64,000 bases of DNA from the NCBI GenBank assembly GCA_021803035.1, contig JAJZME010000047.1:1-64000 (forward strand), in the 5' to 3' direction. Shown piece after piece: positions 34,811 through 44,580 of this stretch. The stretch's first letter is position 1; each line of letters opens with the position of its first letter. Source of the stretch: Acidobacteriota bacterium. Lineage in GTDB: Bacteria > Acidobacteriota > Terriglobia > Terriglobales > Acidobacteriaceae. The position numbers were made by a program, and so were the translations under genes. A model generated the notes under the pieces. It did no database searches and was not told where the DNA came from. It saw only the letters and a program-made list of their open reading frames with translations.

Positions 34811-35400
34811 CTGATTTTTCCCGGATGATACTCGTCTGTCCCCATGACGCGCAAGGATGTTTGATACAAAAACAAACATCTGTGCATCTACATGATTCCG
34901 TGCCTCTTACTTCCGCCAGCATGAAAGCAATCCGTTAGTCACTTGTCATCGCGCAAAAGCCGGGAAGACAATCCGGGATATCCATGCAGCCTGTTCGGGC
35001 GACAGCGGCCAACGCGTGCGGGTTCGTGCGGCAGCGCTCTGACGGTGCTGCTACGGGAGTGCTCCTTTGCTCGAGTTGCCGCTTCCGCGATTGAAACTGG
35101 CGGATTTCCTACCCGCCCCAGGAGATTTCATTCCTTGCTGCAGGCGCCCGGGCGCTATAAGACGCGAGAATCGGACGGTTCACAGCACAAGCGAGCCGAG
35201 ACCGCGGATGGCGGTTACAGGGCAGCGGCTCGGACCGCATGAACCAGCCAAGGTGATTCGACCAGAGGATTCGCCTATGAGAGAAGTCAAGAGCACCGTC
35301 TGCTCCCAGAATCAATCCCAGCAACGATACAAGCAGCCATGGACGCGCGCGGTCAGGAATGCGTCAGCGCCACAAACCAGAAGCTAAGGAGAGCCAAATC
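34811..35400. other. Divergent intergenic region before second TonB receptor
   Basis: This 590-base stretch lies between the membrane regulator and the second TonB receptor. It holds no supported gene. The receptor's ribosome binding site AAGGAGAG lies near its right end. No confident promoter or operator was found by eye. Confidence 0.45.
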
Positions 35401-38400
35401 ATGGACACCCCCAAAATGCTGTTTCGGACTGCCTGCTGTGTTGTCGCCCTGATTGCCGCATCCATTGCCGCTTCAGGCCAGTTATCTACCGCAACGGCAT
35501 CCGGCACTGTCGCCGATCCGACCGGCGCCGCCGTGCCGAATGCAACCGTGGTCTTTACTCAAACCGCGACAAATTTCACGCGCACAACGACAACCGACAG
35601 CCAGGGTGCGTATCAAGCGCCGTTCCTGCCTATCGGCCCTTATAGGGTCAAGGTGGACGCTGCCGGCTTCAAATCCATGGTGCAATCGGGCATTGTGTTC
35701 ACGGTCAACCAACAGGCGACGCTGAATTTCACGCTTCAGATCGGCATGCAGACGGTCGCAGTTCAGGTCACCGGACAAGTTCCTTTACTCAATCAGCAAA
35801 ATTCCGTAATGGGCGGGACGGTCGACAATCACCAGATCGAGAATCTGCCTCTGGTAGGCCGCAACGTATACGATCTCCTCAACATCACACCCGGCGTGCA
35901 GAATGTCCAAAGCGAGAACTCCATCGGCCTGCCGATGGAGCACGTGATCATCAACGGTTCCACTGACAATATGGTCGGTCAGGTCACCTACTACCTGGAT
36001 GGCGGCCTCAATATGACTGGCGTGCGCGATACCGGCAATGTGCTGCCCAATCCGGACGCCATCGACCAATTCAACGTTCAGACCAATAACTTCAGCGCCG
36101 AATACGGCCGCACCGGCGCTGGCGTGGTGTCGGTTGTAACCAAGTCCGGAACAAACACCGTCCACGGATCTCTCTTCGAATTTCATCAGGAGACAAACTT
36201 CAACGCCACAAACTATCTTCAAACCACCAAGACGCCCGAACACATCAACCGCTTCGGCGCCACCCTGGGCGGTCCCGCTCTGAAGAACAAGATCTTCTTT
36301 TTCGGCAGCTATGGCGGCCTGCGCCAGATCAGCCCGCATAACTTCAATACCGTGGTTCCTGATGCGCTGCAGCGGCAAGGCAACTTCTCTGAAAACGACT
36401 GTACGGGTAAAACAACGAGCCACGGTGGATGCTTCACCGTCTACGACCCGGTGACCAATAAGCCGGTGCCCGGGAATCGGCTTGATCTCGATCCAAACTT
36501 CCATCCCGATCCGGTGGCCGCCGCGGTATTGCAAAAGAACGTGCCTTTGCCCACGGCGGGCCGCATCGATAACCGTTTTATCGGCAACGAGGGTCTTCCC
36601 AATCAGACAGACGAGTTCCTGATCAAGGGCGATTTTCAGCTCGTCTCCAACCATCGCGCAACGCTTCAATACTTCCAGTCTGCCGGCAGTCAGACCGTTT
36701 TTCCCGGAGGAAACCTGCCCGGGTGGGCGCTTTCGAATTACGACTACAGACAACAGAGTGCCAACGCCAGCGATGTTTGGACGCTCTCACCGCGCTCCGT
36801 AAACCAGTTCTGGCTGACCTACTCGCGCATGGCGGCAGGCCGCATCAGCACTCCCGCCACTTCTCTGGCGGCCTACGGCTCCGATCTCAACGTACAGGGT
36901 GCGCCGTCTCTGCCGCAGATCAGCGTGGCCAACTTCTTCACGCTTGGGCAATCCATCACCGGGCCCCAGGCTGGCGACAATGTGTACGGCGTCCGCGACG
37001 TGTACAGCACCACCAGGGGAACGCACACGCTTTACGCGGGCGGCGAGCTGTATCTTGAAAAGGATGTTCTCGTGACGCTGCTCAACAACTATGGCGTCTT
37101 CACCTTCAGCAACTCCAACTCCGGAACGCACAACGCCATTTCCGACCTGCTCATCGGCAAGCCCGCCCAGATGAGCCAGGACTCGCCCGACAACGCCAAT
37201 GAAAATTACTGGAACTATGGCCTGTTTCTGCAGGATGATTGGCACCTGCTTCCCAATTTGACGGTGAATCTGGGTCTGCGCTACGACGTGCAGACCCCGC
37301 CAACCGACACGCAGCGCCGCATTGCCGTATTCGATCCCGGTGTGCAGTCCACGGTCTCGCCGCACGCCATGCTCGGGCAGCTCTTCCCGGGCGATCCCGG
37401 AGTGCCGGACGGCGGCGTGAACACGAACTATAACCACTTTGCGCCTCGCATTGGCTTTGCCTACAGCCCCTATCGCGATGGCAAAACCGTGTTCCATGGC
37501 GGCGCCGGCCTGTTCTTCGACACGATCTCAGGAAACGAGTGGATGCTCTCGCAGAACTTCCAGCCCTTTGCCGTCCGCATGACCAATGCATTTACGCACG
37601 TAGTCAGTCTGCAACACATCTATTCCACAGACCCCACGGACTTCGCTGGCAGCGTTTCGCCCTTCCCGTATTACTACAGCAAAACGAATCCGCGCTATGT
37701 CTCTCCTGCGCAGTTAGTATTCGTGCAGAAAGGAATGCGCTGGCCCTATAACTACCAGGCCAACTTCGGCGTGCAGCAGCAAATCACATCGAACCTGGCG
37801 TTCGGCATCAGCTATGTAGGTGACTTCACGCGCAAGCTGCCCCTTTACATCGACCAGAATTATCCCATTTACAACACCGCCATTCCGGCTTCCAATACCA
37901 CCGGCGATGTCAATTGCCGCCGTCCCTACGATGCCGTTCCTTTCAAGGCTGGCTCCACAACCGCCTGCGCCGCGCCAACCGCCGGATCGAAGTACATGAG
38001 CAACGGCTACGTGATCACAGATAACCAGACGGCAAACTACAACGGCCTGCAGGTCGTGGTCGAAAAGCGGTTGAGCCAGGACTTCAGTATCAACGGCTTC
38101 TACATCTGGAGCAAAGCGCTGGCGAGCGCCAATATGCAAACGACCGGCAACATCGGCAACAGCGCCGGGACCGAGCCAGAGGACTATCGCGCCATGTATC
38201 TCGAGCGTCAGCGCGAGTCCAATGACATGCGCAACCAGGCCGTCATCTCGTTTGTCTGGAATCCCAACTACTTCGGTGGCTTTAACCGGGCTACACGAAC
38301 CATTCTGAACGGCTGGTCGCTTGCATCTACGATCACAATGAACAGCGGCAAGCCCTTCACAATCACCAGCGGGAAGGACGACAATGTGGACGGCAACAAT

Positions 38401-38799
38401 AACGATCGTCCCAACCTTCTGCCCGGCAAAACCGAACGCCTGCTCGGCGCGCACAGATCGCGGCAGGCAGAAATGGCGCAGTGGTTCGACACCAGCGCGT
38501 ATTGCGAGGTTGGAAAAGCCGGCTGCCCGGCAGGCGCCGGCGTCTCTGGCCTCGATGGAACAGTTCGGCCCGATTCCATGGATGCGCCCGGATACAAGAA
38601 CGTGAATGCTTCGCTGTTCCGGACCTTCAATATCTACGAGCGTGTCAGGTTTCAGTTCCGCGGCGAAGCCACCAATGTGTTTAACTTCGTCAACCTCAAC
38701 GCGCCCGGAGGCAACCTTACCAGCCCCAGCTCTTTCGGGATTATCTCAGGCGCCGGCGCCATGCGCGTCATTCAGGTCGGCGGCCGGCTGCTGTTCTAG
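35401..38799 (+). CDS. TonB-dependent receptor, Oar-like
   Basis: This 1132-residue receptor starts at 35401, where AAGGAGAG precedes the ATG; the upstream ATG at 35359 is rejected. A signal peptide (CCVVALIAASIAASGQ) is followed by a carboxypeptidase-like domain (ASGTVADPTGAAVPNATVVFTQ). The plug has VTKSGTNTVHGSLFEFHQET, typical of Oar receptors. A barrel with many YxxxFGVQQQ-type strands comes next. It ends AMRVIQVGGRLLF with a terminal aromatic residue, as expected for outer-membrane insertion. The substrate is unknown. It is divergent from the membrane regulator and followed by 430 bases without a gene. Confidence 0.9.
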   Translation: MDTPKMLFRTACCVVALIAASIAASGQLSTATASGTVADPTGAAVPNATVVFTQTATNFTRTTTTDSQGAYQAPFLPIGPYRVKVDAAGFKSMVQSGIVFTVNQQATLNFTLQIGMQTVAVQVTGQVPLLNQQNSVMGGTVDNHQIENLPLVGRNVYDLLNITPGVQNVQSENSIGLPMEHVIINGSTDNMVGQVTYYLDGGLNMTGVRDTGNVLPNPDAIDQFNVQTNNFSAEYGRTGAGVVSVVTKSGTNTVHGSLFEFHQETNFNATNYLQTTKTPEHINRFGATLGGPALKNKIFFFGSYGGLRQISPHNFNTVVPDALQRQGNFSENDCTGKTTSHGGCFTVYDPVTNKPVPGNRLDLDPNFHPDPVAAAVLQKNVPLPTAGRIDNRFIGNEGLPNQTDEFLIKGDFQLVSNHRATLQYFQSAGSQTVFPGGNLPGWALSNYDYRQQSANASDVWTLSPRSVNQFWLTYSRMAAGRISTPATSLAAYGSDLNVQGAPSLPQISVANFFTLGQSITGPQAGDNVYGVRDVYSTTRGTHTLYAGGELYLEKDVLVTLLNNYGVFTFSNSNSGTHNAISDLLIGKPAQMSQDSPDNANENYWNYGLFLQDDWHLLPNLTVNLGLRYDVQTPPTDTQRRIAVFDPGVQSTVSPHAMLGQLFPGDPGVPDGGVNTNYNHFAPRIGFAYSPYRDGKTVFHGGAGLFFDTISGNEWMLSQNFQPFAVRMTNAFTHVVSLQHIYSTDPTDFAGSVSPFPYYYSKTNPRYVSPAQLVFVQKGMRWPYNYQANFGVQQQITSNLAFGISYVGDFTRKLPLYIDQNYPIYNTAIPASNTTGDVNCRRPYDAVPFKAGSTTACAAPTAGSKYMSNGYVITDNQTANYNGLQVVVEKRLSQDFSINGFYIWSKALASANMQTTGNIGNSAGTEPEDYRAMYLERQRESNDMRNQAVISFVWNPNYFGGFNRATRTILNGWSLASTITMNSGKPFTITSGKDDNVDGNNNDRPNLLPGKTERLLGAHRSRQAEMAQWFDTSAYCEVGKAGCPAGAGVSGLDGTVRPDSMDAPGYKNVNASLFRTFNIYERVRFQFRGEATNVFNFVNLNAPGGNLTSPSSFGIISGAGAMRVIQVGGRLLF

Positions 38800-39230: not shown

Positions 39231-42200
39231 TTAGCGGTTATATCTCAATGAACGAATATAGGCGATCAGTGCATTGAGATCCGAGTTGCTCACACTAATC
39301 GCGGGCATGCCGGCAGCCTGCATGGCAGCCGAAGGATGCAGCAGAAGATGCTTGATCACGGCCGGCGGCAACTCGGAGGCCGTCGCAGTGAGTGAGGGTG
39401 CGGCAGCCGTTCCTTCCATGCTGCCCGCACCGTGGCAGGTGGAACATCTGACTCGCTCATAGACGCGCTTGCCGGCCGCTTCTTCCGGAGTTAGCTTGTG
39501 CGGCGGCGCGTGATGGACCGCTGCCCCCGCGGCACTGCTCTTCGCCGCGGCAGTCGCGTGCTGCAGCGTACCCAGGTAGGCCAGCAGCCCCGCCATTTGT
39601 GGATCCGTGTACGTAAAGGTTGGCATCCCTCCACCCTTCATCTTGGCATTGGGATGACGGATCAGGTTGGCGAGTGCCGCAGGAGAGAACTTGTGCGTCA
39701 CGCCGATAAGCGATATCGCCAAAGGCGTTCCCTGGCCGTTTTCGCCGTGGCAGCCAATGCAGCCATGCGACACAAAGATCTGCCGGCCAATCGCTGCCGG
39801 GCCACTCAGCGCAGCCTGAGCCGCCGTCGGCGCCGCCGCAGGTGCCGGCGCAGCTGGAGCCGGCGCTGATGCAGGTGCCGCCGCGCGTGCAGCAGTTGGA
39901 GGAGCCGCACGCGTTGCCGGAGCAGACTTCTGCGCTTTGGGAAGTGGTACAGTCGTCACCGCGTTCGGAGGTATGGGCAGCGATTTCAGAAAAGCCCAAA
40001 TCTCGCGCGTCTGCGCCGCTGACACCGTTGCGGGCGGCATGCCCTTGGCGGTCATCGGCGGAGTCGGGTGATGAATCAGCATGTTGAAAGTTGGTTCGGA
40101 GATAAGCCGCCACAATCCTCCTAGCGGAGGTGCGATCGCTGTCCCCTGCGCCATAGGTCCATGGCACGCCTGGCACGGTTGATGTTGGAAAATAAATCGC
40201 CCCTGGGCCACTTCACTTGCCTCGGCAGCGCTTGTTGACGCCGTGGTGGCGTGATGCGAAACAGTCTTCCTCACCACGGCTGGAATCGGGGTGGGCGGCT
40301 GTGAATGCCCCGAAACAGGAGTAGCCGCCCGTGAAGGGGCCGGCGCAGGAGCATGTGGTTGTGGATGTGGCTGCATCGCCACGTTGGTTACCGGAGGCGT
40401 ACCCGGCAGCCCGTATATCTTGCTCGGAGCCGGCAGGCTCTTCAGAAAGGCAATGAGTGCATTAAGCTGACTCGGGGGCAGATTGTGCGGCATCATCCCC
40501 TTGGCCTGCATGGCCGCAGTGGGATGCGTAATGTGCATCCGGAGGACAGAAGCGGGGGTTTTTGCGGCCCACCCTGCCAGCGTTGGCGCCCGTGGCGTTC
40601 CCTTCGCCATGTTGCCATGACAGGCAAAACAAGCCTGTGCCTGGAAGATCTGATGTCCCTGCGCAATCAGCGCGCCCGCGCTTCCAGGAGCAGCCGCCGA
40701 AACCGGCGTGGCCCCAGAAGTGGTTTGCGCTGCGGCAGAGGCCGCTGACGACGTGCTGGAGGATGCCGACAGAGGAGTTGTGAGCGGTTGCACATTTTCT
40801 TCCGGGGTACCGAGCGCATTCAGATAGGAAACCAGTTCCGTCACCTGTTTGGTTGTCATATCGAAATGGGCAGGCATGCCAGCCGCATGCATGGCGGCCG
40901 TTGGATGCTCAATCAACGACATCACCTTGGGGTGCCCCAGATTCTTCACAATTCCCACCAGCGAAGGTCCAATCGCTCCTCGGCCTCTTATCCCATGACA
41001 GCCCGAGCAACCCTGCTGAGAGAACAGCGCCTTTCCGCGTGCGACCATCGGATTGTACTTAGCCGGCTGCAACATGCTCAGAGAGCCCGGGGCCTGCATA
41101 TACGGCTTGAATGGCCTCTTGTCGTAAGCCTTCTCCTGAGCATCCTGCAACGCGAGCTGCTTCCGCACGGCCGGTTGTTCCATGTCCTGATGATGGCTCA
41201 GCAGGCCCAGATAAATCATACCCAGGAGCACAATCGAAACTGACAGAAGCGGAACTGGACGGCGCCATGGACGCCGCTCCAGCTTGTGGTCGAGAAACGG
41301 CAATAAGAAGAACAAAGCCGCAAGCGCTCCGGGAATAAGGACCACGCCGAAGATTGTGCGGGGGCCCTCCCAGAACTTGAGCCACTCGAAGGCCGGCAGG
41401 AAATACCATTCAGGCCGTGGCAGGTAAGTCGTTGAGGCAGGATTGGCCCGCGGCCCAAGTCCCACCGGATGGATGATGGCCAGTAATCCCAGCACGCTCA
41501 TGAGCACCATGGCAAAAGCCATGTCCATCAGCACCTGCTTTGGATAAAAGCTCTCTGGGGGTAATTTTGGTTTGACTGGATCTTCCGATATCGGGCCGGC
41601 CGCGCCCGCTTGCCTGAACAGGTAGATATGGACCGCGATGAGCCCGAAGATACACGCTGGAATCAGGATGACGTGGGCTATGTAGAAACGCGATAGAGTC
41701 AGCGTGCCGATCGTATCTCCGCCACGCATGAACTCCTCAAGCCATTGGCCAATGAATGGAACTTTCGAAACCAGGTTTGTTCCAACCGCGGTAGCGAAAT
41801 ATGCCCTCTGATCCCAGGGAAGCAGATAGCCGGTAAATGCCATGCCCGTAACCAGCAGGGCCAGTGTACCGCCCGATATCCACAACAACTCGCGCCGCCC
41901 CTTGTACGCACCATAGAGAAATGTCTGCAAAAAGTGGAGCAGCAGCACGATCACCATGGCGCTGGAGCCGTAATAATGCAAGCTACGCAGGAAATCGCCT
42001 GCAGCAACCTCCTTGGTAATATAAGCCACACTCACATGCGCGTTTTGTGCCGACGGCACATAATAGACTGCCAGACAGATGCCGGTAATGACCTGGGAAA
42101 TAAAAAGGAAGAGAAGCCCGGAGCCGAAGACATAGGCCCAGCGTGCCCCTCCGGGAATCGGCTCATCGAGGGATACCTTAAGGATTGTATCTAGCCCTGT

Positions 42201-42263
42201 ACGCTTGTCGATCCAGCGGAACAGCCGTCCGAGACGCGTAGCAGGCACATCTTGTTTTTCCAT
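39231..42263 (-). CDS. Cytochrome b fused to five mono-heme cytochrome c domains
   Basis: This 1010-residue membrane protein is predicted to be the quinol-cytochrome b subunit of a bc-type complex. Residues 1-360 form a multi-helix cytochrome b. Heme-b histidines are H96/H110 (13 between) and H197/H212 (14 between); the second spacing is the b6-type pattern. The quinol-site PEWY motif lies at 284-287. After it come five CxxCH hemes: CSGCH 419-423, CFACH 545-549, CQACH 697-701, CIGCH 835-839 and CSTCH 940-944. Each is followed by a GMP- or GMM-type methionine (GGMP in the fourth) that could be the axial ligand. Alanine- and proline-rich linkers separate the domains. The start has AAGGAGACACG upstream. 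It is last in the operon after the Rieske gene. Confidence 0.93.
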   Translation of the reverse strand: MEKQDVPATRLGRLFRWIDKRTGLDTILKVSLDEPIPGGARWAYVFGSGLLFLFISQVITGICLAVYYVPSAQNAHVSVAYITKEVAAGDFLRSLHYYGSSAMVIVLLLHFLQTFLYGAYKGRRELLWISGGTLALLVTGMAFTGYLLPWDQRAYFATAVGTNLVSKVPFIGQWLEEFMRGGDTIGTLTLSRFYIAHVILIPACIFGLIAVHIYLFRQAGAAGPISEDPVKPKLPPESFYPKQVLMDMAFAMVLMSVLGLLAIIHPVGLGPRANPASTTYLPRPEWYFLPAFEWLKFWEGPRTIFGVVLIPGALAALFFLLPFLDHKLERRPWRRPVPLLSVSIVLLGMIYLGLLSHHQDMEQPAVRKQLALQDAQEKAYDKRPFKPYMQAPGSLSMLQPAKYNPMVARGKALFSQQGCSGCHGIRGRGAIGPSLVGIVKNLGHPKVMSLIEHPTAAMHAAGMPAHFDMTTKQVTELVSYLNALGTPEENVQPLTTPLSASSSTSSAASAAAQTTSGATPVSAAAPGSAGALIAQGHQIFQAQACFACHGNMAKGTPRAPTLAGWAAKTPASVLRMHITHPTAAMQAKGMMPHNLPPSQLNALIAFLKSLPAPSKIYGLPGTPPVTNVAMQPHPQPHAPAPAPSRAATPVSGHSQPPTPIPAVVRKTVSHHATTASTSAAEASEVAQGRFIFQHQPCQACHGPMAQGTAIAPPLGGLWRLISEPTFNMLIHHPTPPMTAKGMPPATVSAAQTREIWAFLKSLPIPPNAVTTVPLPKAQKSAPATRAAPPTAARAAAPASAPAPAAPAPAAAPTAAQAALSGPAAIGRQIFVSHGCIGCHGENGQGTPLAISLIGVTHKFSPAALANLIRHPNAKMKGGGMPTFTYTDPQMAGLLAYLGTLQHATAAAKSSAAGAAVHHAPPHKLTPEEAAGKRVYERVRCSTCHGAGSMEGTAAAPSLTATASELPPAVIKHLLLHPSAAMQAAGMPAISVSNSDLNALIAYIRSLRYNR

Positions 42264-42287
42264 CGTGTCTCCTTGAGAAGCGCCAGC

Positions 42288-42854
42288 TTAGGCCTGGCCG
42301 ATGATTTCGCGGTAAGGAACATCTTCGCGGAAATACTCGAAATGAACCATCAGGTTCCCATCTTGCACTTCCGTCGGCAGTGGGTCCATTCCGCGAGGCG
42401 CGGGACCAGCAACGTGCTTCCCATCCTTGCTGTAGACGCTTCCGTGGCAGGGACAATAAAAGCGCTCCCGATTAGCCTGCCATTGTACCGTGCATCCCAA
42501 ATGCGGACAGATGGAAGACAATACCTGTGTCTCTCCCGAGGGTAGTGTTTCCGCATACACTCCTTCGGTCGTCACAACTTCGCGCCAACCATCCTGCTGA
42601 TTGAAAGTAATGTCCTTGAGCACTGGATCTGTGCTGGCTGAAGGCACCGCTTTATGCGGCATTACCTTCGACCACCACGTCCCTGTGCTCTTGGCATACA
42701 GCGGGTAAAGCATATAGCGCAAAACCGGCACCGCCAGCATTGCGCCCATCGCCGCCGTGCCGATTCCAAGCAGCGCCCCGAAAAAGGAGCGGCGGCTGAT
42801 GACAATTACATCTGCACCCGATTCTGTATGCTGAACCGGCTCATCGTGTTTCAT
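42288..42854 (-). CDS. Rieske iron-sulfur protein
   Basis: This 188-residue protein carries the 2Fe-2S Rieske motifs CPHLGC (116-121) and CPCHGS (134-139). It is the electron acceptor from quinol in bc-type complexes. A twin-arginine sequence SRRSFFGALLG (20-30) followed by a hydrophobic segment makes it a Tat-translocated, N-terminally anchored protein. The start at 42854 is supported by AGGAGACGAG, while the longer frame from 42950 is not. It sits 24 bases before the cytochrome b fusion and 28 bases after the Cyc2-like gene, so all three are likely co-transcribed. A separate cytochrome c1 or f is not encoded in the operon. Confidence 0.96.
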   Translation of the reverse strand: MKHDEPVQHTESGADVIVISRRSFFGALLGIGTAAMGAMLAVPVLRYMLYPLYAKSTGTWWSKVMPHKAVPSASTDPVLKDITFNQQDGWREVVTTEGVYAETLPSGETQVLSSICPHLGCTVQWQANRERFYCPCHGSVYSKDGKHVAGPAPRGMDPLPTEVQDGNLMVHFEYFREDVPYREIIGQA

Positions 42855-42882
42855 TGACTCGTCTCCTGTGATTGTGTACAGG

Positions 42883-44202
42883 TCAATAGTTGAACCATAG
42901 GGCTGCGTAAAGCGTGTTGTTGGCGGACGCGTTGCGGCCTGATCCGTCATAGTTCACGCCAGAGCCGTTGAAGTGGCTGAAACCGTAGTATGACAGCGAT
43001 AGATCGATATTCTCGTCCGGCCAATAACTGGCCTGGAGAATGTACCCGCTGGTATTCGGACTGCCCGTGCGGCTTCCCGTCACCGGCGCCGGCGCATATA
43101 ACGTGGCATCGTTGCTTCCTACCATATTGAAGTAAGATGCGGTAACGTTGTACTTGTTTCCCCAGTAGTACGTCGCATCCATGCGCCCGAGATCGAGCGT
43201 GTGGTCGGGCATCGCCGCTCCACCTTGCTGGTACGTTGCCGCCAGATGCGAACTCTCATGAATATAGGTGCCGTGCACGCTCACCGTATCGGCTCCGATG
43301 GGACGCTCGAAGCTGAAATCGAAGGACGGATCGATATACCGATCCGCGACGCCGCTCACATCGTTGGGGATAGAGCGCATAAAGATTCCGTAGGTTCCGA
43401 ATTCCAGGTAGTTCTTGCCGGCATATTGCTGCCAGGCAAAGCGCCAATAGGGTGCGGCGCCAACGATGTTGTAAGTAAACCCGTTACCATCCGCGGGCGC
43501 GGGACCACCGGCATGCTCTGAGCGATACACAGAGAGATCTCCATAGAGATGGTCATTCCACATGGCATAGCCGCCGGCACCGGCTACATCCTGCCCCAGA
43601 GTTCCGTCAATAACCGGCGCGGCAATCGACCCCGGAGTCTGATCCGGCGAGATATACGGATAGCCCCAGGCCGGTGTGCTATTCCACAGGTCTTCGACGG
43701 TGGGGTTATTGTTCAGATCCACCCCATAGGTCAGATCCTTGCCGTTGATCGTGGCGTGGTTCGCGTAACGAATGTCGGTGTTGTCCATGGTGAAATGATC
43801 ACTCTGGTGGTCGTAGGTCGTTTGCGCCATCACCCCAAAGTGCTTGGCCATCTCTCCGGCCAGGAACAAACTGAACTGCTGCGGAAATTCCACGGTTCCG
43901 TTCTGGGTCTCCGGCTGCTTCTTCTGCGTCTCCGTATCGGAGAGAAGGAGCATGACCGACACCGGCAAATTGCGCATCAACTGCAGCGTATTGCCATTGC
44001 TGATCGTCGTTTCCTTCGGGTTGCCGACCAGGGTGTAGCCATTCAGCTTGAACTGCCGCCCGAACGGCGTCAGTTCGGGGGGATCATAGTGGCATACGTT
44101 GCAGCTAAGCCCCGTCTGCCGTGCAAAAGCCGGTACAGCCCACGCCGGGACGGCCCATCTTACCAGGAATGCGATCACTGCCAGTCTGACAATCAATTTC
44201 AT
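42883..44202 (-). CDS. Cyc2-like outer-membrane cytochrome-porin
   Basis: This 439-residue protein has a signal peptide (VIAFLVRWAVPAWA). A short cytochrome segment with a single CNVCH heme motif at 34-38 lies within ARQTGLSCNVCHYDPPELT. The next stretch, FGRQFKLNGYTL, is typical of Cyc2. The remaining 380 residues alternate strands and aromatic ends (for example YNVTASYFNMVGS, ENIDLSLSYYGFSHF) and end in ALWFNY, indicating an outer-membrane barrel. Cyc2 proteins are heme-porin fusions that take electrons from Fe(II) at the cell surface in iron oxidisers. Many related acidobacterial proteins have no tested function. The ATG at 44202 is preferred over the TTG at 44211. Confidence 0.82.
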   Translation of the reverse strand: MKLIVRLAVIAFLVRWAVPAWAVPAFARQTGLSCNVCHYDPPELTPFGRQFKLNGYTLVGNPKETTISNGNTLQLMRNLPVSVMLLLSDTETQKKQPETQNGTVEFPQQFSLFLAGEMAKHFGVMAQTTYDHQSDHFTMDNTDIRYANHATINGKDLTYGVDLNNNPTVEDLWNSTPAWGYPYISPDQTPGSIAAPVIDGTLGQDVAGAGGYAMWNDHLYGDLSVYRSEHAGGPAPADGNGFTYNIVGAAPYWRFAWQQYAGKNYLEFGTYGIFMRSIPNDVSGVADRYIDPSFDFSFERPIGADTVSVHGTYIHESSHLAATYQQGGAAMPDHTLDLGRMDATYYWGNKYNVTASYFNMVGSNDATLYAPAPVTGSRTGSPNTSGYILQASYWPDENIDLSLSYYGFSHFNGSGVNYDGSGRNASANNTLYAALWFNY

Positions 44203-44217
44203 CTGTGCCAATTACCT

Positions 44218-44349
44218 CTACTGCGGAAGAATCCACAAACCGGTCCGATTTGCTTTCTCGTTCTGGCCCACCCAAAACAGATGAACTGCAAGGACGCACG
44301 ACCGTATCCACATCCCAGCCAGAACCAGGGGCGTACAGATGACGAACAT
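44218..44349 (-). CDS. Possible small membrane protein upstream of the Cyc2-like gene
   Basis: This 43-residue frame begins MFVICTPLVLAGMWIRS and is hydrophobic at the N-terminus. GAGG lies five bases before the ATG. The TAG stop is 15 bases before the Cyc2-like start, with the next ribosome binding site between them. The frame is open further upstream to 44448 but with a TTG start. It may be a real first gene of the operon or a leader ORF. It is too short to be sure. Confidence 0.38.
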   Translation of the reverse strand: MFVICTPLVLAGMWIRSCVLAVHLFWVGQNEKANRTGLWILPQ

Positions 44350-44512: not shown

Positions 44513-44528
44513 TGTGACAAAGATCACA
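44513..44528 (-). promoter_or_regulatory. CRP-type binding site 1
   Basis: TGTGACAAAGATCACA is a perfect TGTGA-N6-TCACA palindrome, the consensus of CRP-family regulators. It lies 164 bases upstream of the small ORF and about 311 bases upstream of the Cyc2-like start, inside an otherwise non-coding stretch. Confidence 0.6.
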
Positions 44529-44564: not shown

Positions 44565-44580
44565 TGTGATACATATCACA
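44565..44580 (-). promoter_or_regulatory. CRP-type binding site 2
   Basis: TGTGATACATATCACA is a second perfect TGTGA-N6-TCACA site, 52 bases centre to centre from site 1, about five helical turns. Such spacing lets two dimers act on one promoter face. Confidence 0.6.

Follow-up and report, generated by a model that had tools for sequence, protein, structure and literature searches.

Cyc2 proteins are recognised by a set of published signs, namely the motif AXPXFAR[Q/K][T/Y], one CXXCH, a PXL, a length of at least 365 residues and a 16-strand barrel (PMC8406198; here and below, literature statements refer to individual passages of the papers cited). Genes for such proteins have already been reported in Acidobacteriota (PMC9671151, PMC10367259), and in a published network the acidobacterial homologues adjoin Leptospirillum Cyc572 (PMC10654088). 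In Acetobacteraceae, Cyc2 often adjoins the gene of a mono- or diheme cytochrome (PMC10715153). Here we consider a stretch of 64,000 nucleotides from an acidobacterial contig (JAJZME010000047.1), called the window below, in which a Cyc2-like gene is followed by the genes of a Rieske protein and of a cytochrome b that ends in a tail of five heme c domains. We propose that electrons pass from quinol through the Rieske/cytochrome b complex and the c tail, reach the heme of the porin and are handed on to ferric iron, the tail replacing a soluble carrier and the flow being probably outward. We consider this proposal about evenly poised between right and wrong. The features concerned are:

42883..44202, minus strand: Cyc2-like cytochrome-porin, 439 amino acids, with a signal-like start, AVPAFARQT, one CXXCH, PEL and a predicted 16-strand barrel
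42288..42854, minus strand: Rieske iron-sulfur protein, 188 amino acids, with a twin-arginine (Tat)-like signal and CPHLGC...CPCHGSVY
39231..42263, minus strand: cytochrome b with five C-terminal CXXCH, 1010 amino acids, the core being residues 1 to ~380, followed by the tail
39234..41045, minus strand: heme c tail of the cytochrome b, five single-heme c domains

The genes lie in the order porin, Rieske protein, cytochrome b, with intergenic gaps of 28 and 24 bases, and constitute a predicted operon. An earlier note on this DNA had described them in the same way, as a cytochrome-porin, a Tat-signal Rieske protein and a cytochrome b with five heme c domains on the minus strand, and that description holds. 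The operon end that it gave, 44349, is wrong, because the porin frame is closed between 44349 and 44211. Reading on from the stop, a TTG at 44211 is the first possible start codon, and the likely start of the porin is the ATG at 44202.

Residues 22-30 of the porin read AVPAFARQT and stand three residues ahead of C34, while the published description places the motif '5 amino acids upstream' of CXXCH, with a counting convention that is ambiguous. The sole CXXCH is CNVCH (residues 34-38), and it is followed by YDP-PEL, so that the PXL is present; the length of 439 residues lies above the published minimum. Every published sequence sign of Cyc2 that was testable is found in this protein. In an alignment of 20 porins that includes the one of the window, all 20 have one CXXCH and all 20 have [FY]xR[QK][TY], while the full motif is found in 11. 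The structure prediction of the barrel that the earlier note had called for gives an AlphaFold2 model of moderate confidence with 16 strands, a predicted local distance difference test (pLDDT) score of 64.3 and a predicted template modelling score of 0.69. The model resembles OmpC, OmpF and OprO (Foldseek; VIA-align Z ~20), and all 50 VIA-align matches listed are porin-type barrels, with no cytochrome-porin among them, which does not count against the assignment. At the sequence level there was no Pfam match at E 1, only two NCBIfam matches with E of 0.07-0.11, and nothing credible in sequence searches of Pfam and PDB; relatives of the porin come from acidobacterial and similar records. The identification as Cyc2-like, with a predicted 16-strand barrel, is thus supported by the motif, the single CXXCH, the PXL, the length and the model.

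The pairing of such a porin with a Rieske/cytochrome b complex was surveyed in 298 genomes drawn from the order, with thresholds of E ≤1e-90 for the cytochrome b and E ≤1e-40 for the Cyc2-like gene. There are 69 cytochrome b genes of the window type, in 65 genomes, and 79 genomes have a Cyc2-like gene. For 46 of the 69 a Cyc2-like gene of the same orientation lies no more than 3 kb away, upstream in 45 cases and downstream in one. Counted by genome, 50 have both genes, 15 only the cytochrome b, 29 only Cyc2 and 204 neither; Fisher values on these counts ignore kinship. The identical gene order is found again at the relatives' loci in many genera, which means that the arrangement is more than chance. 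Judged from gene order, the linkage between Cyc2 and this cytochrome b is no accident, and the tie that the earlier note had drawn at a single locus recurs across the order.

We now turn to the complex itself. Pfam recognises the Rieske domain (5.6e-10), Cytochrome_B (5.3e-47) and five cytochrome c stretches. The N-terminus of the Rieske protein, SRRSFF, is Tat-like, the NCBIfam Tat model reaching only E 0.14. The cytochrome b has the His pairs 96/110 and 197/212 and PEWY at 284, and the cluster motif of the Rieske protein is present, as in Rieske/cytochrome b complexes; quinol oxidation with a Q cycle would be the probable function. In the tail, the CXXCH motifs lie at residues 419, 545, 697, 835 and 940. 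The c domains have block-mean pLDDT values of 55-92 in the predicted model, and the linkers between them fall under 50 (residues 496-527, 614-680, 767-817 and 904-920). Ala, Pro, Ser and Thr make up 62-82% of three of the four linkers, and 50% of the short last one. An MP pair follows 30-75 residues after 128 of the 132 CXXCH in complete tails with four or five hemes, a broad pattern that is compatible with a Met heme ligand. According to a rough estimate from chain scaling, five domains would reach 13 nm root-mean-square and ~80 nm fully stretched, and one domain 4 and 9 nm, respectively. Since the periplasm is some 20 nm wide, five c domains could bridge it, while a single domain hardly could.

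The number of tail hemes was then compared with gene content at 70 loci, which are the 69 plus one from another order (G052; G and L numbers are our handles for genomes and loci). Removal of ten cut or broken rows left 60, with genes counted by script, and a small c gene was defined as the gene of a small single-heme protein no further than 1 kb upstream. At the loci with four or five tail hemes, Cyc2 is adjacent in 31 of 31 complete cases, at L032 downstream of the cytochrome b, and the small c gene is found in none of the 31. The 29 complete loci with one or two tail hemes include 23 with the small c gene and 9 with Cyc2, and L073, L086, L105 and L151 have neither. Because long tails go with Cyc2 and without the small c gene, the tail may be a tethered heme chain that replaces the soluble carrier. 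In the tree of these loci the multiheme rows need three changes, and nearly all of them group together. Nested among them, G159 has four hemes and Cyc2, and its close relatives G075 (two hemes) and G008 (one heme) have no Cyc2 beside the operon; G008 has a distant motif-bearing porin elsewhere in the genome (L072), and G075 gave no Cyc2-like match reaching E 1e-40. Relatives of this kind, with short tails and without Cyc2, offer ready comparisons.

A carrier role for the tail also fits what is found beside proteobacterial Cyc2-like genes. Nine proteobacterial plasmid records, including Acidiphilium and Caballeronia, hold relatives of the porin over at least 80% of its length at 31-39% identity. 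Seven loci were fetched from these nine full-length matches, two of the seven being near copies, and in all seven the annotation places the gene of a c-type cytochrome near the Cyc2-like one, as the next gene downstream in six. No Rieske protein or cytochrome b is annotated in the 6-8 kb flanks of the seven loci, for which the gene table is incomplete. A nearly identical Cyc2-like region occurs in NC_009469.1 (L088, an Acidiphilium cryptum plasmid) and CP084173.1 (L090, a plasmid recorded as Acidithiobacillus ferrooxidans), which could reflect either recent transfer or a mixed culture.

In the proposed mechanism, the Rieske protein and the cytochrome b would exchange electrons with quinol at the inner membrane. 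The five c domains, on flexible linkers, would cross the periplasm and meet the single heme of the porin, so that no soluble cytochrome would be needed. When oxygen is scarce, electrons would probably run outward, from quinol via the Rieske protein, the c tail and the heme of the porin, with soluble ferric iron as acceptor, and this flow would conserve energy through the Q cycle. Flow along the path could also be reversible. With the ferric/ferrous couple being high at low pH, the transfer from quinol to ferric iron would be downhill; the host is presumably a heterotroph living at low pH, and iron is the presumed partner of the porin. Low-oxygen reduction of ferric iron is described for Acidobacterium capsulatum and for strains of Acidicapsa, and in Acidithiobacillus a part in ferric reduction has been put forward for Cyc2 together with bc1 (PMC8790237); other work on acidophiles makes a similar proposal (PMC10715153).

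Upstream of the porin there are two sites of possible regulatory interest:

44513..44528, no strand assigned: exact Crp/Fnr-type palindrome TGTGA-N6-TCACA, 326 bp upstream of the porin start
44565..44580, no strand assigned: second exact TGTGA-N6-TCACA palindrome, 378 bp upstream of the porin start

They are the only exact copies in the window, where 0.05 would be expected, and the whole 3.86-Mb genome has 13 such places. At least one exact palindrome is present in 19 of 57 Cyc2 upstream stretches and none in the other 38, compared to ~0.12 expected at the genome rate; these stretches are 600 bp long and include lone Cyc2-like genes, one gene is split in two, and near-copies inflate the count. 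Elsewhere in the genome, inspection of the palindromes by eye gave no clear respiratory gene set. One of them (G000:C34:28269; L167 474-2385) has as neighbours a Usp-like gene and the gene of a CX2CX8C-bearing regulator of Crp/Fnr type. Crp-type helix-turn-helix matches number six in the genome, five of them over the cut-off; three of these five have a RETVxR helix, and two of the three also CX2CX8C. Regulators with these two features may be redox sensors with a CRP-like choice of DNA. A promoter scan gave nothing above shuffled sequences.

The direction of flow has to be considered separately. The earlier note took the operon for an inward route, which is not supported as it was stated, since the sequence does not fix the direction. 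In such a route ferrous iron would reduce the porin, and the Rieske/cytochrome b complex would work backwards to supply quinol for biosynthesis. The Cyc2 motif of the porin agrees with this, Cyc2 being best known as a ferrous iron oxidase, as does the description of Acidithiobacillus Cyc2 as feeding bc1 uphill (PMC8790237), and other Rieske/cytochrome b clusters near Cyc2-like genes in the order do have an NAD(P)-type oxidoreductase. However, the source genome, in which no carboxylating RuBisCO was identified, shows no evident need to reduce quinone uphill. We dropped its PF00016 match, a hint of autotrophy, as support for inward flow, because a rubisco-like protein is what it matches best in PDB, and OiaX, under the cut-off, in NCBIfam. 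This rubisco-like protein (G000:C37:39159-40004; L080 7856-10479) adjoins an OiaK-like kinase, also under its NCBIfam cut-off, a pair resembling isoapionate catabolism rather than carbon fixation. PF00016 occurs in 5 of the 26 operon-bearing genomes examined, the source included, four at 227-230 bits like that of the source and one as a fragment, and neither an oxidase nor rusticyanin is found among the ten neighbouring frames scanned with Pfam. We regard inward flow as rather unlikely. 

It is also conceivable that iron is oxidised in the forward direction only, from ferrous iron via the porin and the c tail to a caa3 oxidase, with the cytochrome b feeding quinol electrons into the same tail. 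The MP pair of the tail domains, located where a heme-binding methionine would lie, suits this, and the one COX1 match of the genome does belong to a caa3-type cluster. That cluster, however, already has its own Rieske protein, cytochrome b and c subunits, for which reason the complex of the window looks dedicated; moreover, it is the cytochrome b that recurs as partner of the porin, and the neighbourhood of the window operon showed no oxidase. We hold forward oxidation to be very unlikely. Hardly better is the prospect that the extracellular partner is something other than iron, for instance manganese, a different metal or metalloid, or humic quinones, with a porin that shares only fold and motif with Cyc2. 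It would be in keeping with Cyc2 sequences in organisms not known to oxidise iron (PMC7029218) and with the Geobacter porin that is clustered with a Rieske protein and cytochrome b and affects selenite and tellurite reduction (PMC5877670), but this Geobacter porin, ExtI, has no heme motif, whereas the CXXCH is invariant in the porins aligned here. Outward flow from quinol to ferric iron is favoured, on the grounds that no carboxylating RuBisCO was identified, that the bc-caa3 cluster is separate, and that two Crp/Fnr-type palindromes lie upstream. The recurrence of such palindromes ahead of other Cyc2 genes, the two regulators with CX2CX8C and the published ferric iron reducers among acidobacteria also speak for it.

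A number of points weigh against the proposed outward path. Those Cyc2 proteins that have been characterised are held in the literature to oxidise ferrous iron (PMC8406198, PMC7029218), and the search for carbon fixation in the source genome covered RuBisCO as the one route. The pLDDT values of the models are 64 for the barrel and 59 for the cytochrome b. The association between tail and Cyc2 rests on only 2 independent pairs on starred branches of the tree, and is for this reason not significant once kinship is counted. Two loci, L057 (G039) and L047 (G052, its Cyc2 copy ~1 kb downstream), combine Cyc2 with one tail heme and have no small c gene. Finally, we had expected the serine of high-potential Rieske proteins to accompany multiheme tails, and this idea was rejected: 15 of 32 complete loci with four or five hemes keep the serine and 17 do not, such that the Rieske residues are independent of tail type.

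Other Cyc2-associated clusters were also encountered. Twelve loci hold a different set of Rieske, b6 and subunit IV genes with a GltD-like NAD(P)-type oxidoreductase; they were fetched for their Cyc2 matches, which makes the linkage there conditional. A Cyc2-like gene stands beside the cluster at L061, L064, L065 and L081-L084, and more distant porins at L066-L070; a Cyc2-like or distant motif-bearing gene is counted for 11 of the 12, the match at L070 being weak. The multiheme c protein, an octaheme or hexaheme one, is present in 11 of 12 (L081 is cut by the contig end), often together with a cupredoxin-like protein. Anammox complexes that resemble these clusters have been proposed to make NAD(P)H (PMC12954380). 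The gene neighbourhoods suggest that the pairing of Cyc2 with Rieske/cytochrome b complexes recurs in these bacteria. At L054 (6598-8636) and L056 (1131-6489), Cyc2-like genes lie near multiheme frames with 5 and 3 CXXCH, respectively, without Rieske protein or cytochrome b, and these frames are possible further partner types.

One can speculate that the Acidobacteriales have a distinct surface respiration, in which a Cyc2 porin is hard-wired to several Rieske/cytochrome b lineages, with the tail of the window type spanning the periplasm and two others adding an NAD(P)-type oxidoreductase. We hold this to be unlikely. If it were true, the oxidoreductase in those two lineages would mean that surface electrons make NAD(P)H, or are drawn from it, through a bc complex and without complex I. 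More generally, soluble carriers are the usual explanation for the crossing of the periplasm between the quinone pool and Cyc2; the gene content described above predicts that a fused heme tail takes their place. The operon also touches on the wider question of what Cyc2 does outside autotrophic iron oxidisers. Acid soils, peat and mine waters harbour abundant Acidobacteria, and a conserved surface electron path would therefore bear on iron cycling there.

As to the surroundings of the operon, seven of the ten neighbouring frames have Pfam matches, namely a PrpD-like protein, EF-G, two purine-type genes, DnaE, a DUF3738 protein and a TonB-type receptor, and three have none; nothing respiratory is among the ten. 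A large TonB-type outer membrane protein (OMP_b-brl_4) adjoins the operon on the opposite strand, at 35359-38799 of the window.

We finally compare the locus with the known systems. With the Cyc2 family of Acidithiobacillus, Mariprofundus and Leptospirillum (Cyt572), the porin shares AXPXFAR[QK][TY], the single CXXCH, the PXL and the predicted 16-strand barrel, but its partner is a Rieske/cytochrome b complex with a heme tail and not a soluble c cytochrome, cupredoxin or oxidase. The rus and pet operons of Acidithiobacillus ferrooxidans are similar in that published models propose electron transfer between Cyc2 and a Rieske/cytochrome b complex, in either direction. They are, however, separate operons joined by soluble rusticyanin and c4 cytochromes, whereas the window has one operon and a fused heme chain, and in place of the rus-type order (cyc2, cyc1, cupredoxin, cox genes, rusticyanin) the Rieske protein and cytochrome b come next.

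The extHIJKLMNOPQS cluster of Geobacter likewise brings together an outer membrane porin, a Rieske protein, cytochrome b and c hemes. There, the multiheme cytochromes are separate proteins and, as far as the porins can be compared by description, ExtI lacks the heme motif that the window porin has. Membership in the Ext group was rejected for the lack of heme in ExtI and because the NCBIfam scores of the cytochrome b against ExtP and of the tail against ExtS are under the cut-off; the porin has no Ext-type NCBIfam match at E 1, although whether NCBIfam includes an ExtI model was not checked. The anammox complexes of Rieske/cytochrome b with an NAD(P) oxidoreductase share the core with extra c hemes, but no such oxidoreductase is found among the scanned neighbours in the window, and the passages seen on those complexes mention no Cyc2 partner (PMC12954380).

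Among the matches listed from open-licence PMC papers, a scope that leaves subscription papers, preprints and supplements aside, none describes the present arrangement in the passages retrieved, and the suggestion that it was previously undescribed is consistent with that literature. Cyc2 in Acidobacteriota is known, and its wiring to a heme-tailed Rieske/cytochrome b complex, in line with these searches, appears to be new.

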